Virus record (IMG/VR): IMGVR_UViG_3300025652_000227
Span: 1-35,682 of that record
Direction: 5' to 3' (one strand)
Length of the DNA stretch: 35,682 bases
Source of the DNA: a virus
Both the position numbers and the translations under genes were made by a program. Positions within the stretch are counted from its first letter, which is position 1, and every line of letters begins with the position of its first letter. Shown here in pieces: positions 3,183 through 21,965 of the stretch. The notes under the pieces were generated by a model that searched no databases, was not told the origin of the DNA, and saw only the letters and a program-made list of their open reading frames with translations.

Positions 3183-4658
3183 TTAATAATATTCTCTTTT
3201 TGCACGAAATTTAAATTCATCGTCTTCATAATCACTCGGAGTCGTAATAAAACCACCCTGTCTAAAACGTAGTATAGCCTGTGTCATCGAATCCGCCAAG
3301 TCATCATGTTCACCATTTGGAAAAGAAGCGCATTCTTCTATCACTTCTTCAGCAAAATTCATGTCTGGTGCCCACACCATACCACTCTCAAATACAGGCG
3401 CACATGAGTGCATTCGGGTAAACTTGTCAGCCCCCTTACCCGGAGTAAAAGGGGTTACAGGTATTCCCATACGCCTTAATTCCTGTGTTAATGGCATACC
3501 AGATCCTTTTTGTTCTATAAGTACCATATCAGGATCGAACTCTTCCCACAACTCATGTGCAGCAGTTTTTAATTCTGGGAACTCCCAACGCCCCCTAACA
3601 GCGTCAAGTAAAACAATGTGATCTTCCCCAGTTTCCTCCCTGTGAAACACGCCCCAAGTCGTAATAGCACTGTAATCAGCCCTGTCAGACTTGCTAAATG
3701 CCGTGTCATAGCTCTGTATAACGTAACTACAGTTGGGTGGCTCGTCTTTTTCCCACAAATTCCACCATTCACGCTTAATTATCGCACCCTCTTCAGCCGT
3801 AGGGTTCTGCATATACTGCGCATTCCACTTAGATACAGGAATAGAGGCTTTTACCCCCTCTAATTCATCTAAAGTCCAAAATTCAGGCCATAAAGACTTG
3901 CCAGACGGCATAATTGCAGGAAATTCCACAATTTCCCACTTATCAGCTCCCTTTTCGCTCTGCTTTTGCAAAACTTTCGCCGTCAAATCACGAATAGACC
4001 ACCTTGTCATCACAATTATGATCGCACCGCCGGGCTGTAAACGCTGTCGAGGGCCAGATGTGTACCATTCGTAGATATTATCCAACGCTGTAGAACTCAA
4101 AGCGTCTTGCTCAGACACAGGGTCATCAATAATAGCTAAATCAGCACCACGACCCGCAAGCGCACCGCCCACACCAACAGCGTAATACTCACCACCCTTG
4201 TTTGTACTCCACCTACCAGACGCTTTCGCGTCCCCCGCAAGACTTACTTCAGGAAAAACATCCCTAAAATCCTCGCTATCAATTAAATTCTTAACTTTTC
4301 GACCAAAACCAACAGCTAACTCAGCCGTGTGAGTCGCCTGAATGATTTTTTTCGTAGGATCACGCCCCATTAACCAAGTGGGAAATAAATAAGACGCAAA
4401 CTCAGACTTCGTATGTCGAGGAGGCATGTTAATAATCAAACGCTTTAACTTACCATCCGCTACAGCTTGCAGTTTTTCAGCGTAAATCTTGTGATGCCTG
4501 CCCTCAATAAACTGAGGCCAAACATGCTTTACAAACGTCATAAAGCTTTCTTGCTTGGTAGTCCTGTCATCTAAAGTTTTAAGCCGCTCCAACATAGGAG
4601 CGACTTTCGCTAACTCTTCATCCGTTAAATACTGGGTAAAGTCACTCAGGTCGTTCAA
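3183..4658 (-). CDS. terL: Terminase large subunit (packaging ATPase and nuclease)
   Basis: 491 residues. The ATPase half has an atypical Walker A at about 79-86 (PPRHTKSE) and a Walker B at 173-180 (DLAIIDDP), followed by the MTRWS coupling-type motif at 217-221. The RNase H-like nuclease half carries the expected acidic residues at D318 (SYDTAF), E382 (LIEQKGSG) and D452/D453/D456 (HDDLADS). The length and motif order fit the large terminases that translocate DNA through the portal and cut concatemers. It starts at ATG 4658 with a GGGAG-type site. The small subunit is not adjacent; it lies about 8 kb away at 13001-13531. Confidence 0.95.
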   Translation of the reverse strand: MNDLSDFTQYLTDEELAKVAPMLERLKTLDDRTTKQESFMTFVKHVWPQFIEGRHHKIYAEKLQAVADGKLKRLIINMPPRHTKSEFASYLFPTWLMGRDPTKKIIQATHTAELAVGFGRKVKNLIDSEDFRDVFPEVSLAGDAKASGRWSTNKGGEYYAVGVGGALAGRGADLAIIDDPVSEQDALSSTALDNIYEWYTSGPRQRLQPGGAIIIVMTRWSIRDLTAKVLQKQSEKGADKWEIVEFPAIMPSGKSLWPEFWTLDELEGVKASIPVSKWNAQYMQNPTAEEGAIIKREWWNLWEKDEPPNCSYVIQSYDTAFSKSDRADYSAITTWGVFHREETGEDHIVLLDAVRGRWEFPELKTAAHELWEEFDPDMVLIEQKGSGMPLTQELRRMGIPVTPFTPGKGADKFTRMHSCAPVFESGMVWAPDMNFAEEVIEECASFPNGEHDDLADSMTQAILRFRQGGFITTPSDYEDDEFKFRAKREYY

Positions 4659-11682: not shown

Positions 11683-11706
11683 GGGATACTAAACTAATAG
11701 TATCCC
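11683..11706 (-). terminator. Rho-independent terminator after the 119-residue gene
   Basis: A 9-bp perfect stem GGGATACTA / TAGTATCCC (11683-11691 with 11698-11706), loop of 6. On the - strand it is followed by TTTTCTTATATA. It lies between the 119-residue gene and the amidoligase operon, so the two are separate transcripts. Confidence 0.8.
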
Positions 11707-11734
11707 CGATCCCGATCCCGATCCCGATCCCGAT
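11705..11734. repeat. Tandem CCCGAT hexamer array
   Basis: Five perfect CCCGAT copies in tandem (11705-11734), followed by degenerate copies (CCGATG, CCCCGATG) and another CCCGAT at 11754-11759 that abuts the stop of the 119-residue gene. The same hexamer recurs many times in 12740-12935. The array is too short and lacks spacers for a CRISPR. It could be a protein-binding cluster or a replication-slippage product. Confidence 0.85.
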
Positions 11735-12180: not shown

Positions 12181-12270
12181 CACAAAAAGATAATTTTTTT
12201 TATCTTTCTCACCAGCGGGTGCTGGAACTGCTGCAGCTCAAATAAGCCGAACAATTGTTCGCGCCTTCGG

Positions 12271-12564: not shown

Positions 12565-13000
12565 CCCCTAAGATAAATTTTTTTATCCAGGCGGGATGCC
12601 GGGCTGAACACCGGGCGGAAGCCACCGGGCTGCCGGGGGTTTTACGAACAATTGTTCGGGTTAGCTCACCGGGCACAGTTCCGCCGGGCGGGAGGAGATG
12701 CTGCCGGGGAAGATCCGGGGAGCAGGTAATGAATTACCGGGGGTGTCCCGATCCCAGCGCCCCGATCCCGAACAATTGTTCCCGATCCCCGATCCCGAAG
12801 ACCCCGATCTTCAAAAGGAGGAGCTGCTGCTCCGAGTTCGAGTTGCACACCCAGCAGCCCGATGGTATAATATCCCGAACAATTTTTCGGCTTAACCCCG
12901 ATCCCGATGCTGGTGATGACAAAGCCCGATCCCGACCCCCGACACATCCCGAACATTTTCCCGCTGGGGAACGCCCGACCGCCCCCTCTAGGCAATCCAG
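12565..13000. other. GC-rich non-coding island with CCCGAT, CCGGG and CCGAACA words
   Basis: About 435 bp without a supportable gene, much richer in G+C than its surroundings. It is built of recurring words: CCGGG (mostly 12590-12760), CCCGAT or CCCGATCC (12746-12935) and CCGAACA palindromes. A possible rightward promoter lies inside it (TTGCAC 12843-12848, 17 bp, TATAAT 12866-12871). The island lies between the small terminase gene and the accessory genes, so it could be a packaging (pac/cos) site, an origin element or a recently inserted repeat element. Open frames across it are artefacts of the repeats. Confidence 0.6.
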
Positions 13001-13531
13001 CTATTCCGCTGGGTTCTCGCTATCTGCTGCTACTGGGATTTGTTCGGCTTCTATGGGATTTTCTGCTGGTGTAACGTCAATCATACGATTTTTAGCACGA
13101 TCCATAAATTCTTCCAGTTGTTCTACGATTTGGTCACGGGTTAGGCTATCTATGTTTTCGTGTGTTACATGGCTACGAGCGACCATTAATCCCGTTACCT
13201 TGAGCCTGAGTTCTTCTGCTTTAATTGCTGCTGAAAAGTTTCCTGCCTGCCATGCTTCATCTCTGAGCAGTTGCATATCCCGAACAGATTTAGTCACAGA
13301 GACACCGTACTTGCTTTCTAGCTCCTGTCTCATTTCTTCGAGGCGTTCTTTTACCGTGGGATTATTAAGAAGCTGCACAGCTCTGACGTTGGCGTTCGAA
13401 TACCCTGCTTCTCGTGCTGCTGCGGTTTGTGTCATATCTCCGTGAAGATAGTTTTTGAGAAACTGTTGCTGTTTTGGATTGAGCCTTCTGTTCCCGTGTA
13501 TCTTATCTTCTTTTATTCCTACCTTCGGCAT
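13001..13531 (-). CDS. terS: Terminase small subunit
   Basis: 176 residues. Residues 16-60 (LNPKQQQFLKNYLHGDMTQT, then AAAREAGYS and NNPTVKERL) match the Terminase_2 / DNA-packaging small-subunit signature: an N-terminal helix-turn-helix that recognises the packaging site. The middle is a coiled, charged oligomerisation region and the C-terminus is acidic and flexible. The start is ATG 13531, preceded by GTAGGAGC; an upstream frame to 13603 lacks a ribosome binding site. It is separated from the large subunit by the accessory cluster, and lies directly beside the GC-rich island and the iteron cluster, both possible recognition targets. Confidence 0.88.
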   Translation of the reverse strand: MPKVGIKEDKIHGNRRLNPKQQQFLKNYLHGDMTQTAAAREAGYSNANVRAVQLLNNPTVKERLEEMRQELESKYGVSVTKSVRDMQLLRDEAWQAGNFSAAIKAEELRLKVTGLMVARSHVTHENIDSLTRDQIVEQLEEFMDRAKNRMIDVTPAENPIEAEQIPVAADSENPAE

Positions 13532-13656
13532 ACCAGCTCCTACCCGAACAATTTTACGACTTATGACCCGCAGCCATTCTACTAAAAACGCTACGATGGT
13601 CAAGTGCTATAGTTGTCATAATTTCCCAGAACATCAGGAAGCGGCTGACGCTCCAT

Positions 13657-13859
13657 TACGTCAAGGGGGGATGATGTATATCCCCCCCTATAAGGGGGGT
13701 GACGCAGTTGACGTAAATTAACCCATTGATTTTATTGATTTATTTACGTCAACTCGACTTTCTGACGTAGTTGACGCGATTGGTCTAAGTAATTGATTTT
13801 ATTGAATAAGTTACGGCAACGTCAACCGCGTCAACTTTGACGTAGAAAATGTTGACGTA
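13657..13859. repeat. Iteron-like TTGACGTA cluster, candidate replication origin
   Basis: In about 200 bp, TTGACGTA or close variants (TTGACGCG, ACGTCAA, GCGTCAA) occur at 13657, 13708, 13745, 13763, 13771, 13819, 13828, 13837 and 13852, in both orientations. Two copies of ATTGATTTTATTGA (13725-13738 and 13792-13805) form AT-rich stretches between them, and alternating G6 / C7 / G6 runs (13665-13699) can form competing hairpins. The cluster lies between divergent blocks (small terminase leftward, early genes rightward). The whole gap 13532-13946 holds no gene. Repeated protein sites plus AT-rich DNA are the hallmark of an origin or a dense operator. Confidence 0.7.
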
Positions 13860-13889
13860 AAATAAAGATAAAATAATTTATTTTTTCTC

Positions 13890-13918
13890 TTGACATATGG
13901 AAAAACTTCATATACTAT
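13890..13918 (+). promoter_or_regulatory. Early rightward promoter
   Basis: TTGACA (13890-13895), then TATACT at 13911-13916 (15 bp) or TACTAT at 13913-13918 (17 bp). It is followed by an AGAGGAG ribosome binding site (13933-13939) and ATG 13947. It lies directly downstream of the TTGACGTA cluster, which probably controls it. Confidence 0.75.
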
Positions 13919-13946
13919 AGTGATAGTATTTTAGAGGAGTAAACAA

Positions 13947-14234
13947 ATGCAAGTAAAGTTAGAAAAAAGCACAGCGCATACAGTTTATTATACAGCTAGG
14001 AATGGTAAAACATTATTTCATTTAATGGCGTATGATGCAGAAGGCAGAGAGTATTCTCATTATTATAATTTTCATGATCGTGATCGTGCAGACGTTTTAG
14101 CTAAGAAAGTTAATGATCTTGGTTATATTAATCATGATCATTGGGGTTGTAGAGTTCCTTATGGATCTAATGCTTGGCTTTCTGACGGTATGGAAGATCG
14201 TTTAATTGAAGATGAAAAAAATGGTTATTTATAG
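13947..14234 (+). CDS. Hypothetical early protein
   Basis: 95 residues, first gene after the early promoter, with a strong AGAGGAG site. It starts MQVKLEKSTAHTVYYTARNG; two beta-like strands are followed by an aromatic, His/Asp-rich segment (EYSHYYNFHDRDRADVLAKK) that suggests an alpha/beta fold. No known motif is recognised. As the first early gene it is a candidate for host takeover or a regulatory role, by position only. Confidence 0.75.
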   Translation: MQVKLEKSTAHTVYYTARNGKTLFHLMAYDAEGREYSHYYNFHDRDRADVLAKKVNDLGYINHDHWGCRVPYGSNAWLSDGMEDRLIEDEKNGYL

Positions 14235-14243
14235 GAGGTAATA

Positions 14244-14510
14244 ATGGTTATTAAATTAAATTCTTTCAGCAACAAAGATTGCACTTTAGAGGACGCTCAG
14301 ACTTGCGTTAATCAACTTGCCGATGTGGTAAATGTTATTCTGGAAGCGGCTAAAAAAATGTCTGACGCAGAACAAAATGATGCGGTTTGCAAAGAAGTTT
14401 TCGAGAACACATATTGGAAGCTATACAATAGATTAAGTTATCTAGAAACTGACAAGCACAGGCATCCGCACAACGAACAACTAGAATATGTAATGAATAG
14501 GAATGGGTAA
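14244..14510 (+). CDS. Hypothetical early protein, helical
   Basis: 88 residues starting MVIKLNSFSNKDCTLEDAQT, largely helical and charged (CVNQLADVVNVILEAAKKMS). It follows the first early gene by 9 bp with AGGAGG before the ATG, so it is co-transcribed. Four Cys or His residues are scattered without a zinc-site pattern. The family is not recognised. Confidence 0.75.
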   Translation: MVIKLNSFSNKDCTLEDAQTCVNQLADVVNVILEAAKKMSDAEQNDAVCKEVFENTYWKLYNRLSYLETDKHRHPHNEQLEYVMNRNG

Positions 14511-14515
14511 TAAAA

Positions 14516-14926
14516 ATGAAAAACGATACTGATATGTTTGGCACTTGGATTTTAAACTTTTACTTTAAGGAGTTCATGAAGCACATGAAGAGTGATCCTA
14601 AGTATACTGAGGAGTTGAAAGCTGTGGCTGATGCTCACACGATTTACGCAGAGGGTGATCTTGCTTTAGAGGAGTACGTCAAGAAAGAGTATTTAAAATA
14701 CATGACCAATACTCTTGATGTTACTGAGGAGAAGGTTTTGGACATCATTAAGAAATGTCTTAAAGATATGCCGCAACCAGATTGGAACCCAAAGTACGAT
14801 TATTTTCTTGATTACTTTTCTACTATTACAAACGAAGTTTGTTCTGAGTTGATTGACATTCATTTAAATGAAAACCTAAAAAAGTGGGTTGCTAGTTTAG
14901 AGGCTAAACACGCGACTATTAATTAA
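14516..14926 (+). CDS. Hypothetical early protein
   Basis: 136 residues starting MKNDTDMFGTWILNFYFKEF, helical and acidic, with many Lys/Glu/Tyr residues (TEELKAVADAHTIYAEGDLA). The ATG is 5 bp after the previous stop; the ribosome binding site is weak (AGGAATGGG at a distance), which suggests coupling. No motif is recognised. It is the last gene before a gap that ends in a terminator. Confidence 0.7.
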   Translation: MKNDTDMFGTWILNFYFKEFMKHMKSDPKYTEELKAVADAHTIYAEGDLALEEYVKKEYLKYMTNTLDVTEEKVLDIIKKCLKDMPQPDWNPKYDYFLDYFSTITNEVCSELIDIHLNENLKKWVASLEAKHATIN

Positions 14927-19470: not shown

Positions 19471-19773
19471 TGGCAGGTTGTATTTTTTTATAATATTCCG
19501 AACAAAAGTTTCGGTTGAAAACATTACTTCTGCAATTTTTGGTATTTTCATATTTCTGTTTAGAAAACTATTAACCATCTTTGCATTTTTAGATAGATTT
19601 TTAATCTCATCTTGTTTTTCGGCAAAAGTTTTTATTTTTACTTGCCCCCGAAGATTTGGTCTTTCTGATACGTCCAATCTATTTTGAACGCACCAGTTTT
19701 TGCTGTAGAGATCTTCATATCTTATTCTAGCCGCTTCGCTTTGGTATATCTTACCTTTTACTTGAGCCTTCAT
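19465..19773 (-). CDS. HTH-like protein downstream of the primase-helicase
   Basis: 102 residues. The C-terminal segment (NMKIPKIAEVMFSTETFVRN, then IIKKYNL) looks like a helix-turn-helix of the resolvase/MarR-like, sequence-specific kind; the N-terminal half is basic. It is coupled to the primase-helicase by a TAATG overlap and is the last gene of the replication operon. It may be an origin- or operator-binding protein. This is a motif-level call only. Confidence 0.65.
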   Translation of the reverse strand: MKAQVKGKIYQSEAARIRYEDLYSKNWCVQNRLDVSERPNLRGQVKIKTFAEKQDEIKNLSKNAKMVNSFLNRNMKIPKIAEVMFSTETFVRNIIKKYNLPK

Positions 19774-21965
19774 TACTCACCTCCATTTATGATTGCTTGT
19801 TCTGCTTGATATAGATCACCGCCCACAACACCGAGAAACCTTCTCGATCCTTGATTTGTTCTTTTATATTTACCAATTCTACCTGCTTGCAACAAAGCTG
19901 TAACAGCTTTTTTAATTGTAGTTCTGCCATCATCCCTCAAGTTTGCAGCGTTTATATTTGTATCTGGAGTTGAGGAAATAGTGTCAAAGATACTATCTTG
20001 TCCATCATGCGTCATATAAATACCCGCCTGCTCTTGCAGATCTATAAAATTAAACACATATTCTAATCTATTCCGAACAATTTCAGAACCAATGATGCTT
20101 CTAATATCCTCACTTCGATCTTCTAGCAGTCCATTGTTCGGGTTACGAATAAAATGTCTGATGTCCCGATTAGCAACACCGTTTGATTTTACGACTGCGC
20201 CATCAAAGACAGTGTTTCTTGTGTAACTAATTCCAAGATTTGTGCATCTTGTTCTAGCTACGCCCTCATCCACTTGCCAAACAGCAAATGCTGATCTAAC
20301 CCCATCGACAATAGCTGACGTACCCCGAATAAGATTACGAGCCTGTTCTGGCGTTGTAACAGGATCTTTATCCCTGATTTTAGCCATGTGGTGATTAACC
20401 ATAACTGTAGCGCCTGTTTCTGTAGCCATTTGAGCTAACAATCCCATAAAAGCAGCGCCTGCTGCAGGATCTGCATTTACATCTGCGTGTACAAATGATG
20501 CCATAGGATCAATAACAATCAATGCCAGATCCTCGATCTCCAACATTTCCTCGTAAATCTTTTCAAACTCTGGAGATGTGACGTAGGTATTGTCGGCCTT
20601 CATCATAATTGGAAACACTCCGCCTTCGTTTGGAAGGGGCACAACCAGCAAATCATGTCTATAACCCGAACGAGTGTTCATCTTATCCAGTCTGCTGACC
20701 CTGCGATGAAGCTCATCTCTGTCATCTTCTGCTGATAATATAATGGCTGACCCGTGATGAGAGACTAAACCCCCGAAAGAATTTTGCATAGCTTCGCCCG
20801 ATGCCACCTTCATAGCCAGATCTAATGTCATCATACCTTTACCGCTATCTCCAGCAGCCGCGAAAACACATGGAACTCCCAGCGGTATGGTATCTCCAAT
20901 TAGAAATTTTTGTTCGGGTGCAGCGCCAACGAATTGATTTTCAATAAGAAGGTTTCTATTTTTGAGAGATAATGTTCTCTTTACTTTATGATTTGGTGCG
21001 TTGAGAAACTTCGATATATCAAAAGCTTCTTCAATCGCATCAGCAGCGTCCCACTTTTTTGGCTTACCCTGTGGTGGCGTAAGCATCGTAACGGCTTTTG
21101 CCCCTGCGTTAACACCAAGCTCTTGCACTATTTTGGCTAATTTCTGACCCGCTTCATCGTTATCAGGCCATATAATAAGCTCTTTGCCGTGCAATGGAGA
21201 GAAATCAAACTTATCTTTTGTGCGCTGAGATAGCATCCCTGCGCCCCCGATAGTACAAGTTGCTGTATGCCCAAGCTTAATTAGTTCATCAGCACACTTT
21301 TCGCCCTCTACCCATATGACCCGATCTGCTTCTTTGATCTGCGGTAGGTTATATAACGGCCTAGTTTCTGGTAAACGTGGGAACTGACGAAACTCTTTTT
21401 TTGCGCTGCCGTCATTATCCCGAACAATTTCACCAGTTTGATCTCGTTCGATGTATTTCCTGACCGCAACGATAATTTCACCGTCTTCTGACAGGTATAA
21501 ATACTCTCCATCGTATGGCGTTGAGTAGTCGATAACCCGCTTTTGTTTAACTTGTTCGGGTTGTTGTTCCTGCTGCGGCTGGGCAAGTGCAGGATTTATT
21601 GGATTCATGGGTGGTTCTGTCTTTTGTTTTTCCAACCATGTGCCAAAATGTTCGGCTACATCTTTAATTTTCCAACCATATGCCGCCATCAGGATTTTAG
21701 TTATGCCCCCGATGCCATCACCTGTGTTAAAGTCCATGCCTCGCATGAACTCTGAGCTAGATGGATCTATATTTATCTTGAGAGATTGACCCGCTTCGCC
21801 ATTCAAAGACCCCAGATAAAACTCATTCCGAACAACTCTTCCGTTTGGATAAGCATTTTTTAAAGCCTCTATTTGCACATAAGACGGAACTTTATCCGTT
21901 ATCTCTGCGACTAAATCTCTCGGTTCACTACCATATCTTGTGTTGCCAATTACCCTTAATGACAT
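19773..21965 (-). CDS. Primase-helicase (TOPRIM plus RecA-like RepA/AAA_25 ATPase)
   Basis: 730 residues. The N-terminal 100 residues resemble the primase-associated domain preceding TOPRIM (a GSLNGEAGQSLKI-type strand-turn). The TOPRIM follows at about 210-310, with the conserved Glu in VEGEKCAD (219-226) and the acidic WPDNDEAG. A RecA-like ATPase follows: Walker A GDSGKG (372-377), Walker B around D486 (LIVIDP) and a VNHHMAK sensor-like motif. It makes primers and unwinds DNA at the fork. It is encoded in the leftward replication operon, downstream of the nuclease and helicase. The N-terminus has no cysteine pair, so a zinc-binding domain seems absent. Confidence 0.88.
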   Translation of the reverse strand: MSLRVIGNTRYGSEPRDLVAEITDKVPSYVQIEALKNAYPNGRVVRNEFYLGSLNGEAGQSLKINIDPSSSEFMRGMDFNTGDGIGGITKILMAAYGWKIKDVAEHFGTWLEKQKTEPPMNPINPALAQPQQEQQPEQVKQKRVIDYSTPYDGEYLYLSEDGEIIVAVRKYIERDQTGEIVRDNDGSAKKEFRQFPRLPETRPLYNLPQIKEADRVIWVEGEKCADELIKLGHTATCTIGGAGMLSQRTKDKFDFSPLHGKELIIWPDNDEAGQKLAKIVQELGVNAGAKAVTMLTPPQGKPKKWDAADAIEEAFDISKFLNAPNHKVKRTLSLKNRNLLIENQFVGAAPEQKFLIGDTIPLGVPCVFAAAGDSGKGMMTLDLAMKVASGEAMQNSFGGLVSHHGSAIILSAEDDRDELHRRVSRLDKMNTRSGYRHDLLVVPLPNEGGVFPIMMKADNTYVTSPEFEKIYEEMLEIEDLALIVIDPMASFVHADVNADPAAGAAFMGLLAQMATETGATVMVNHHMAKIRDKDPVTTPEQARNLIRGTSAIVDGVRSAFAVWQVDEGVARTRCTNLGISYTRNTVFDGAVVKSNGVANRDIRHFIRNPNNGLLEDRSEDIRSIIGSEIVRNRLEYVFNFIDLQEQAGIYMTHDGQDSIFDTISSTPDTNINAANLRDDGRTTIKKAVTALLQAGRIGKYKRTNQGSRRFLGVVGGDLYQAEQAIINGGE

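Follow-up and report, generated by a model that had tools for sequence, protein, structure and literature searches.

The sequence analysed (hereafter the window) was a viral record from IMG/VR of 35,682 bp, probably a fragment of a larger genome. As the initial annotation had described, it contained a cluster of short repeats (iterons) located between the leftward terminase small subunit gene (terS) and the rightward early genes. The start of terS was most likely the ATG ending at 13534. The features of the locus were as follows.

13001-13534, minus strand: terminase small subunit gene (terS), divergent neighbour
13657-13664, minus strand: iteron s0, TTGACGTA, abutting the hairpin
13665-13699, no strand: hairpin block G6-N11-C7-TATAA-G6
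13700-13704, plus strand: half-site TGACG, found in most relatives with the GACG word
13708-13715, plus strand: iteron s1, TTGACGTA
13719-13731, plus strand: IHF-consensus element 1, TAACCCATTGATT (consensus in 95 of 109 unique arrays)
13745-13752, minus strand: iteron s2
13762-13769, plus strand: iteron s3, CTGACGTA
13771-13776, plus strand: iteron s4, TTGACG
13786-13798, plus strand: IHF-consensus element 2, TAAGTAATTGATT (consensus in 88 of 109 unique arrays)
13812-13819, minus strand: degenerate iteron s5, TTGCCGTA
13820-13825, minus strand: iteron s6, CGTCAA
13829-13834, minus strand: iteron s7, CGTCAA
13837-13844, plus strand: iteron s8, TTGACGTA
13852-13859, plus strand: iteron s9, TTGACGTA
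13890-13918, plus strand: sigma-70-like early promoter, TTGACA-17-TACTAT (TTGACA at 13890, TACTAT at 13913)

The repeat cluster was real. Eight exact copies of TTGACG/CGTCAA were located within about 210 bp of the region 13640-13870, while dinucleotide shuffles of this region gave 0.2 copies on average and two at most, and no 210-bp stretch of the shuffled windows had more than three. With at most one mismatch allowed, TTGACGTA occurred 40 times in the window against 23.6 expected, a count reached by none of 100 shuffles, and eight of the 40 copies lay within 13657-13859. The sites spanned only this interval and not the 13532-13946 to which the cluster had initially been assigned. Similarly, the early promoter was indeed present downstream, but the distance from the last iteron to its -35 box was 30 bp rather than the proposed 40 bp. 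The two AT-rich repeats were located at 13725 and 13792, and the G/C runs were found at 13665-13670 (G6), 13682-13688 (C7) and 13694-13699 (G6). The GC content over 13708-13889 was 31% compared to 41% for the whole window. The array had no exact DnaA box (TTWTNCACA), which was not decisive since this box is frequent but not universal in iteron origins. The sign of the GC skew, which had been suggested as a check, did flip at the cluster, but the skew mirrored the gene strand and reverted near 19.5 kb. Because it tracked the gene strand, GC skew was uninformative with respect to replication.

Relatives were gathered via TerS, and 109 distinct arrays were taken from IMG/VR contigs, most of which were partial (L-numbers below are labels of related loci or contigs). 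The initial annotation had proposed conservation in relatives as another check, and by this measure the array was strongly conserved. The conserved element was about 200 bp long and consisted of the hairpin, two clusters of sites and the two IHF-consensus elements, with a site spacing that was near-exact across dozens of contigs. In nearly all marine contigs it lay between divergent terS and early genes. When the first four sites were combined into a spaced pattern, 96 stretches in IMG/VR matched it; its strict GACG version had no match in bacterial genomes because the word itself changes, as described below. The AT-rich repeats were exact matches to the IHF consensus WATCAANNNNTTR and were spaced by 66-68 bp. 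This pair was kept across most words, and none of 1200 shuffled arrays had two matches. Going by the consensus, the putative bending protein would be IHF or a similar bender.

The hairpin block was unremarkable by single-strand folding energy alone (z -1.5). However, of the two pairs inside the G/C stem, the one adjoining it was T-A in 29 of 54 distinct sequences and A-T in 15. Both this pair and the next were compensated, being paired in 45 and 37 of the 54 sequences against shuffled means of 27 and 24. These compensatory changes indicated that the hairpin was kept as a structure, possibly as a single-strand initiation or extrusion element. A word-agnostic hairpin scan gave few further arrays among the matches listed.

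The surroundings of the array had several peculiarities of their own. In L074 (about 220 bp from 1293 on), L075 and L079-L081, an insertion separated the array from terS. In L074-type loci, the G/C-run hairpin was replaced by GGCGGT-ATTATA-ACCGCC, a different sequence with the stem retained. On the other side, the first genes right of the array (13947-14926) differed among the otherwise near-identical phages L003, L007, L009 and L014; the array therefore adjoined a hot spot of gene exchange. The stretches 11705-11730 and 12747-12935, adjoining terS, were GC-rich and noncoding with at least 10 CCCGATCCC repeats, and their composition was strongly anomalous for the locality. Comparable repeats were present in L007. 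A perfect palindrome, GAACAATTGTTC (mostly CGAACAATTGTTC), was found at 12249, 12646 and 12770, that is, three times within 535 bp, with related words at 12877 and 13546. It occurred in 1-4 copies in many related loci and resembled an SOS box of the CGAACN4GTTCG type.

Relatives that seemingly had no array were found to carry one with a different word. The word had the general form (T/C)T-NNNN-TAA, and ten NNNN types were present within the marine phage group: GACG, AACG, GAAG, GGAG, GGAC, ACCG, CCGG, CATG, TGCC (with TGCG) and TGGG. Within an array, most sites shared the change of word, and the layout was retained; in several other phages a site equivalent to s0 also had the local word. Mixed arrays combined neighbouring words, namely GACG/AACG, GGAG/GGAC and ACCG/AACG. 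This diversity allowed candidate reader proteins to be compared with the words. The L006/L008 phages had the word TGCC, yet their TerS was 99-100% identical to that of the window, so TerS does not read the word. The Fis-type and HTH-like proteins, put forward initially as possible binders, were unsupported in this role, since both were more than 90% identical between L008 and the window despite the different words. Additionally, the HTH-like protein was only 66-73% identical between phages sharing one word. All three proteins were rejected as word readers because they did not track the word.

RepA was the sole protein found to track the word among the proteins compared, and the tracking was confined to its C-terminal winged helix. 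The corresponding features were as follows.

19773-21965, minus strand: RepA-type initiator, 730 aa (AAA_25, E 7.7e-32; phrog_239, DNA primase/helicase)
19776-20129, minus strand: RepA C-terminal winged helix, residues 613-730, proposed word reader
19887-19925, minus strand: predicted recognition helix, residues 681-693, RTTIKKAVTALLQ

RepA had an N-terminal domain, a weak match to a Toprim primase, an AAA_25 helicase domain (Pfam) and the C-terminal winged helix. The latter was predicted for the tail (the last ~118 residues) with a mean pLDDT of 81.5, K685 being placed in the third helix and R702 in the wing. Its structural neighbours were only generic winged-helix proteins (Z 7-8), and Foldseek gave no match to the tail at E 0.001 or better. 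The tail had nothing significant among Pfam and PDB sequences, nor did the full RepA profile against PDB at E 0.001.

RepA and the words were compared in contigs that had both repA and an array. Between phages with different words, the RepA core was 90-98% identical and the tail only 34-67%: core and tail identities were 90% and 34% for the window and L008, 98% and 67% for L227/L197, 95% and 50% for L388/L222, and 95% and 47% for L210/L197. In same-word pairs with a core identity of at least 95%, the tail was mostly 79-99% identical. The same-word pair L114/L247 was a counter-case (core 94%, tail 57%). L181-L183, whose own arrays were off the contigs, carried the L008-type recognition helix; relative to the window, their RepA core was 94%, the Cas4-like nuclease 98-99% and the HTH-like protein 92% identical, but the tail only 34%. 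On a tree of the RepA core, 14 of the 15 columns changing most on word-change branches were located in residues 613-705, and the top-changing columns included K685, K699 and R702. For the tail as a whole, the branch test was not significant (41% versus 32% of changes; p 0.14 against random branches), since the tail is fast-evolving throughout.

Residue 685 suggested how the word might be read. Among 48 non-redundant RepA/word pairs counted without regard to kinship, it was Lys in 36 of the 38 sequences whose word had a third-base C. None of the seven sequences with A at this place had Lys, and three of them had Asn. Lys contacting the guanine that pairs with C is a classical mode of base recognition, as is Asn contacting A. 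Moreover, Lys685 changed to Asn together with GACG to GAAG independently in two distant RepA clades (L197 and L271). As far as sequence comparison can indicate specificity, these two convergent cases were the strongest part of the evidence on this residue. An exception was L133, where the GACG word was accompanied by Ser.

We also found arrays next to repA-family genes outside the marine group. An array directly followed a RepA-family gene (35% identical) of RHph_Y3_1, a cultured Rhizobium phage; it was made up of TTGGGAAC/GTTCCCAA words and had two IHF-like TAANNNNTTGAAA elements 66 bp apart. In bacterial genomes, defining an array as a single 7-mer occurring five or more times no more than 300 bp past the repA stop codon, we identified one at 25 of 70 usable repA-family loci (including Shinella, Pseudaminobacter, Blastochloris, Novosphingobium and others) and detected none at the remaining 45. 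The 300 bp before the gene, used as a control, had an array in 0 of 68 cases, and background windows in 10 of 1251 (odds ratio 69). In total, 21 different words followed these genes. At L519, L523 and L515 (Krumholzibacteriia and Binatia MAGs), with arrays of ACCCCGC and TACCGCA, the best match was in the primase region only; the linkage may therefore exceed the AAA_25 family.

The pelagiphage HTVC027P and phage 023Pt_psg01 had a replication module with DNA polymerase A instead of RepA, and an array with the RepA-type layout was absent from both. The GCTTG/GCGAGC repeats near the pelagiphage terS were different in kind and were rejected as a counterpart of the array. The TerL of the window (3183-4658) was 60-61% identical to the TerL of these two phages. 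The replication module, RepA or DNA polymerase A, was thus exchanged within one packaging lineage that shared TerL.

The proposal that the cluster was an origin or an operator was supported, and its conservation together with the co-variation of word and RepA tail favoured an origin, this tail being the proposed DNA-binding part of a primase-helicase. We consider it likely, judging from sequence on which all our conclusions rest, that the element 13657-13889 is the RepA-driven replication origin of this phage. The support consisted of the conserved architecture, the change of the word across whole arrays, its tracking by the RepA tail, the convergent Lys685 to Asn changes, the linkage of other arrays to repA and the absence of the array from related pelagiphages with a different replication module. 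A point against this reading was that in the marine group repA lay 6 kb away from the array, which adjoined terS. Under the proposed mechanism, RepA would act as a one-protein initiator combining a primase-like region, an AAA_25 hexameric-type helicase and the winged helix, the last of which would bind the (T/C)T-NNNN-TAA iterons. The two YAANNNNTTGATW elements would be the places where IHF or a similar protein bends the DNA and so brings the iteron clusters together. The AT-rich DNA (31% GC) would then open, the helicase would be loaded, and replication would start at the array, with the G/C hairpin possibly acting as a priming or extrusion site.

It was unlikely that the array is instead an operator or enhancer at which a regulator (possibly RepA) and IHF control the early promoter, and perhaps terS, with replication starting elsewhere. 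Its position between divergent genes, with a good early promoter 30 bp beyond its end, was consistent with such a role. However, the word tracked a primase-helicase and not a regulator, the arrays of RHph_Y3_1 and of the bacterial genomes were downstream of repA and never upstream, and relatives differed in how far beyond the last site the next promoter-like sequence lay. It is possible that the array is also an operator for the adjacent early promoter.

Repeats combined with IHF-like elements resemble lambda cosB, and the array adjoined terS in nearly all marine contigs, as would suit a packaging site where TerS binds repeats beside its own gene with IHF bends. This reading was largely refuted and highly improbable, since TerS was nearly invariant across entirely different words, contrary to what a lambda cosB-type site calls for, and in RHph_Y3_1 the array adjoined repA and was some 2.5 kb away from terS. 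A recombination site with attP-like arm sites or a partition site hardly deserved consideration: in attP, too, short sites in both direct and inverted orientation are combined with IHF elements, but none of the window proteins examined was recognisable as the product of a recombinase or partition gene, and the word tracked RepA.

We found no published description of the array element in the literature. It would work like the PICI rep-ori and the PLE RepA/ori, a likeness known here from sequence that does not imply membership. In the pri-rep-ori of PICI/SaPI, a primase/initiator gene is immediately followed by an origin where two iteron sets flank an AT-rich region (PMC6092414). The prophage relatives found here also had repA and then the array. 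This position directly 3' of the initiator was observed in RHph_Y3_1 and in the 25 of 70 genome loci but not in the window, where 6 kb lay between them. The conserved G/C hairpin and the IHF-like pair were further differences, as was the initiator, here a helicase of the AAA_25 type that ends in a winged helix; PICI initiators belong to another helicase class.

The Vibrio cholerae PLE has iterons that vary in step with the RepA domain that binds DNA, the remainder being conserved; experiments there demonstrated cognate pairing, and Odn, an origin-directed nuclease, is known to exert selection (PMC8263062). The joint change of reader domain and iteron word within an otherwise conserved background was similar here. 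However, the PLE protein has an N-terminal RepA_N domain and its origin three ~30-bp semi-palindromic iterons (PMC8263062). Moreover, there are two types in PLE compared to ten words here in one phage group.

The oriV system of plasmid RSF1010 (RepA/RepC/RepB') has an AAA_25 helicase, iterons, an AT-rich region and hairpin priming sites. The RepA-family AAA_25 helicase (by Pfam match), iterons, AT-rich region and hairpin were all found here, but in RSF1010 a separate RepC binds the iterons, whereas here the proposed iteron-binding domain and the helicase form one protein. Such a one-protein layout is known from the alpha protein of phage P4, which combines primase, helicase and a C-terminal iteron-binding domain (putative in our case); its helicase belongs to superfamily 3 and not to AAA_25. 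Fast change of the word with its reader domain also has a parallel in geminiviruses, whose iterons of five to six bases diversify quickly among close relatives with the reading domain of Rep, although these are rolling-circle ssDNA viruses with unrelated proteins (PMC12548392). The nearest annotated RepA homologue was that of the Wolbachia phage WO (37% over residues 34-716); the part of WO that was scanned showed no conspicuous array of this kind.

The origin/initiator pairs of these relatives are probably mutually incompatible, as the word and tail comparisons suggest. More tentatively, and with somewhat less than even confidence, we propose a replicon class, widespread among phages and prophages, that consists of an AAA_25 primase-helicase with a winged helix and a lineage-specific array. 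Strong diversifying selection would repeatedly switch the word through few code-following contacts (Lys at 685 with C, Asn with A), giving many orthogonal origins. If this is true, the switching is perhaps an escape from origin-directed nucleases, satellites or co-infecting relatives. By analogy with PLE/ICP1, we hypothesize that escape from such nucleases or relatives drives the word changes, which would suggest a similar arms race at the origins. The ten marine words and the 21 words from bacterial genomes would represent a natural experiment on the joint change of initiator and origin specificity, with residue 685 as a named residue for specificity, and may provide candidate orthogonal replicon parts. 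Moreover, the proposed assignment would give an origin and an initiator to a common group of uncultured phages, and a sequence signature by which origins may be located in many prophages.
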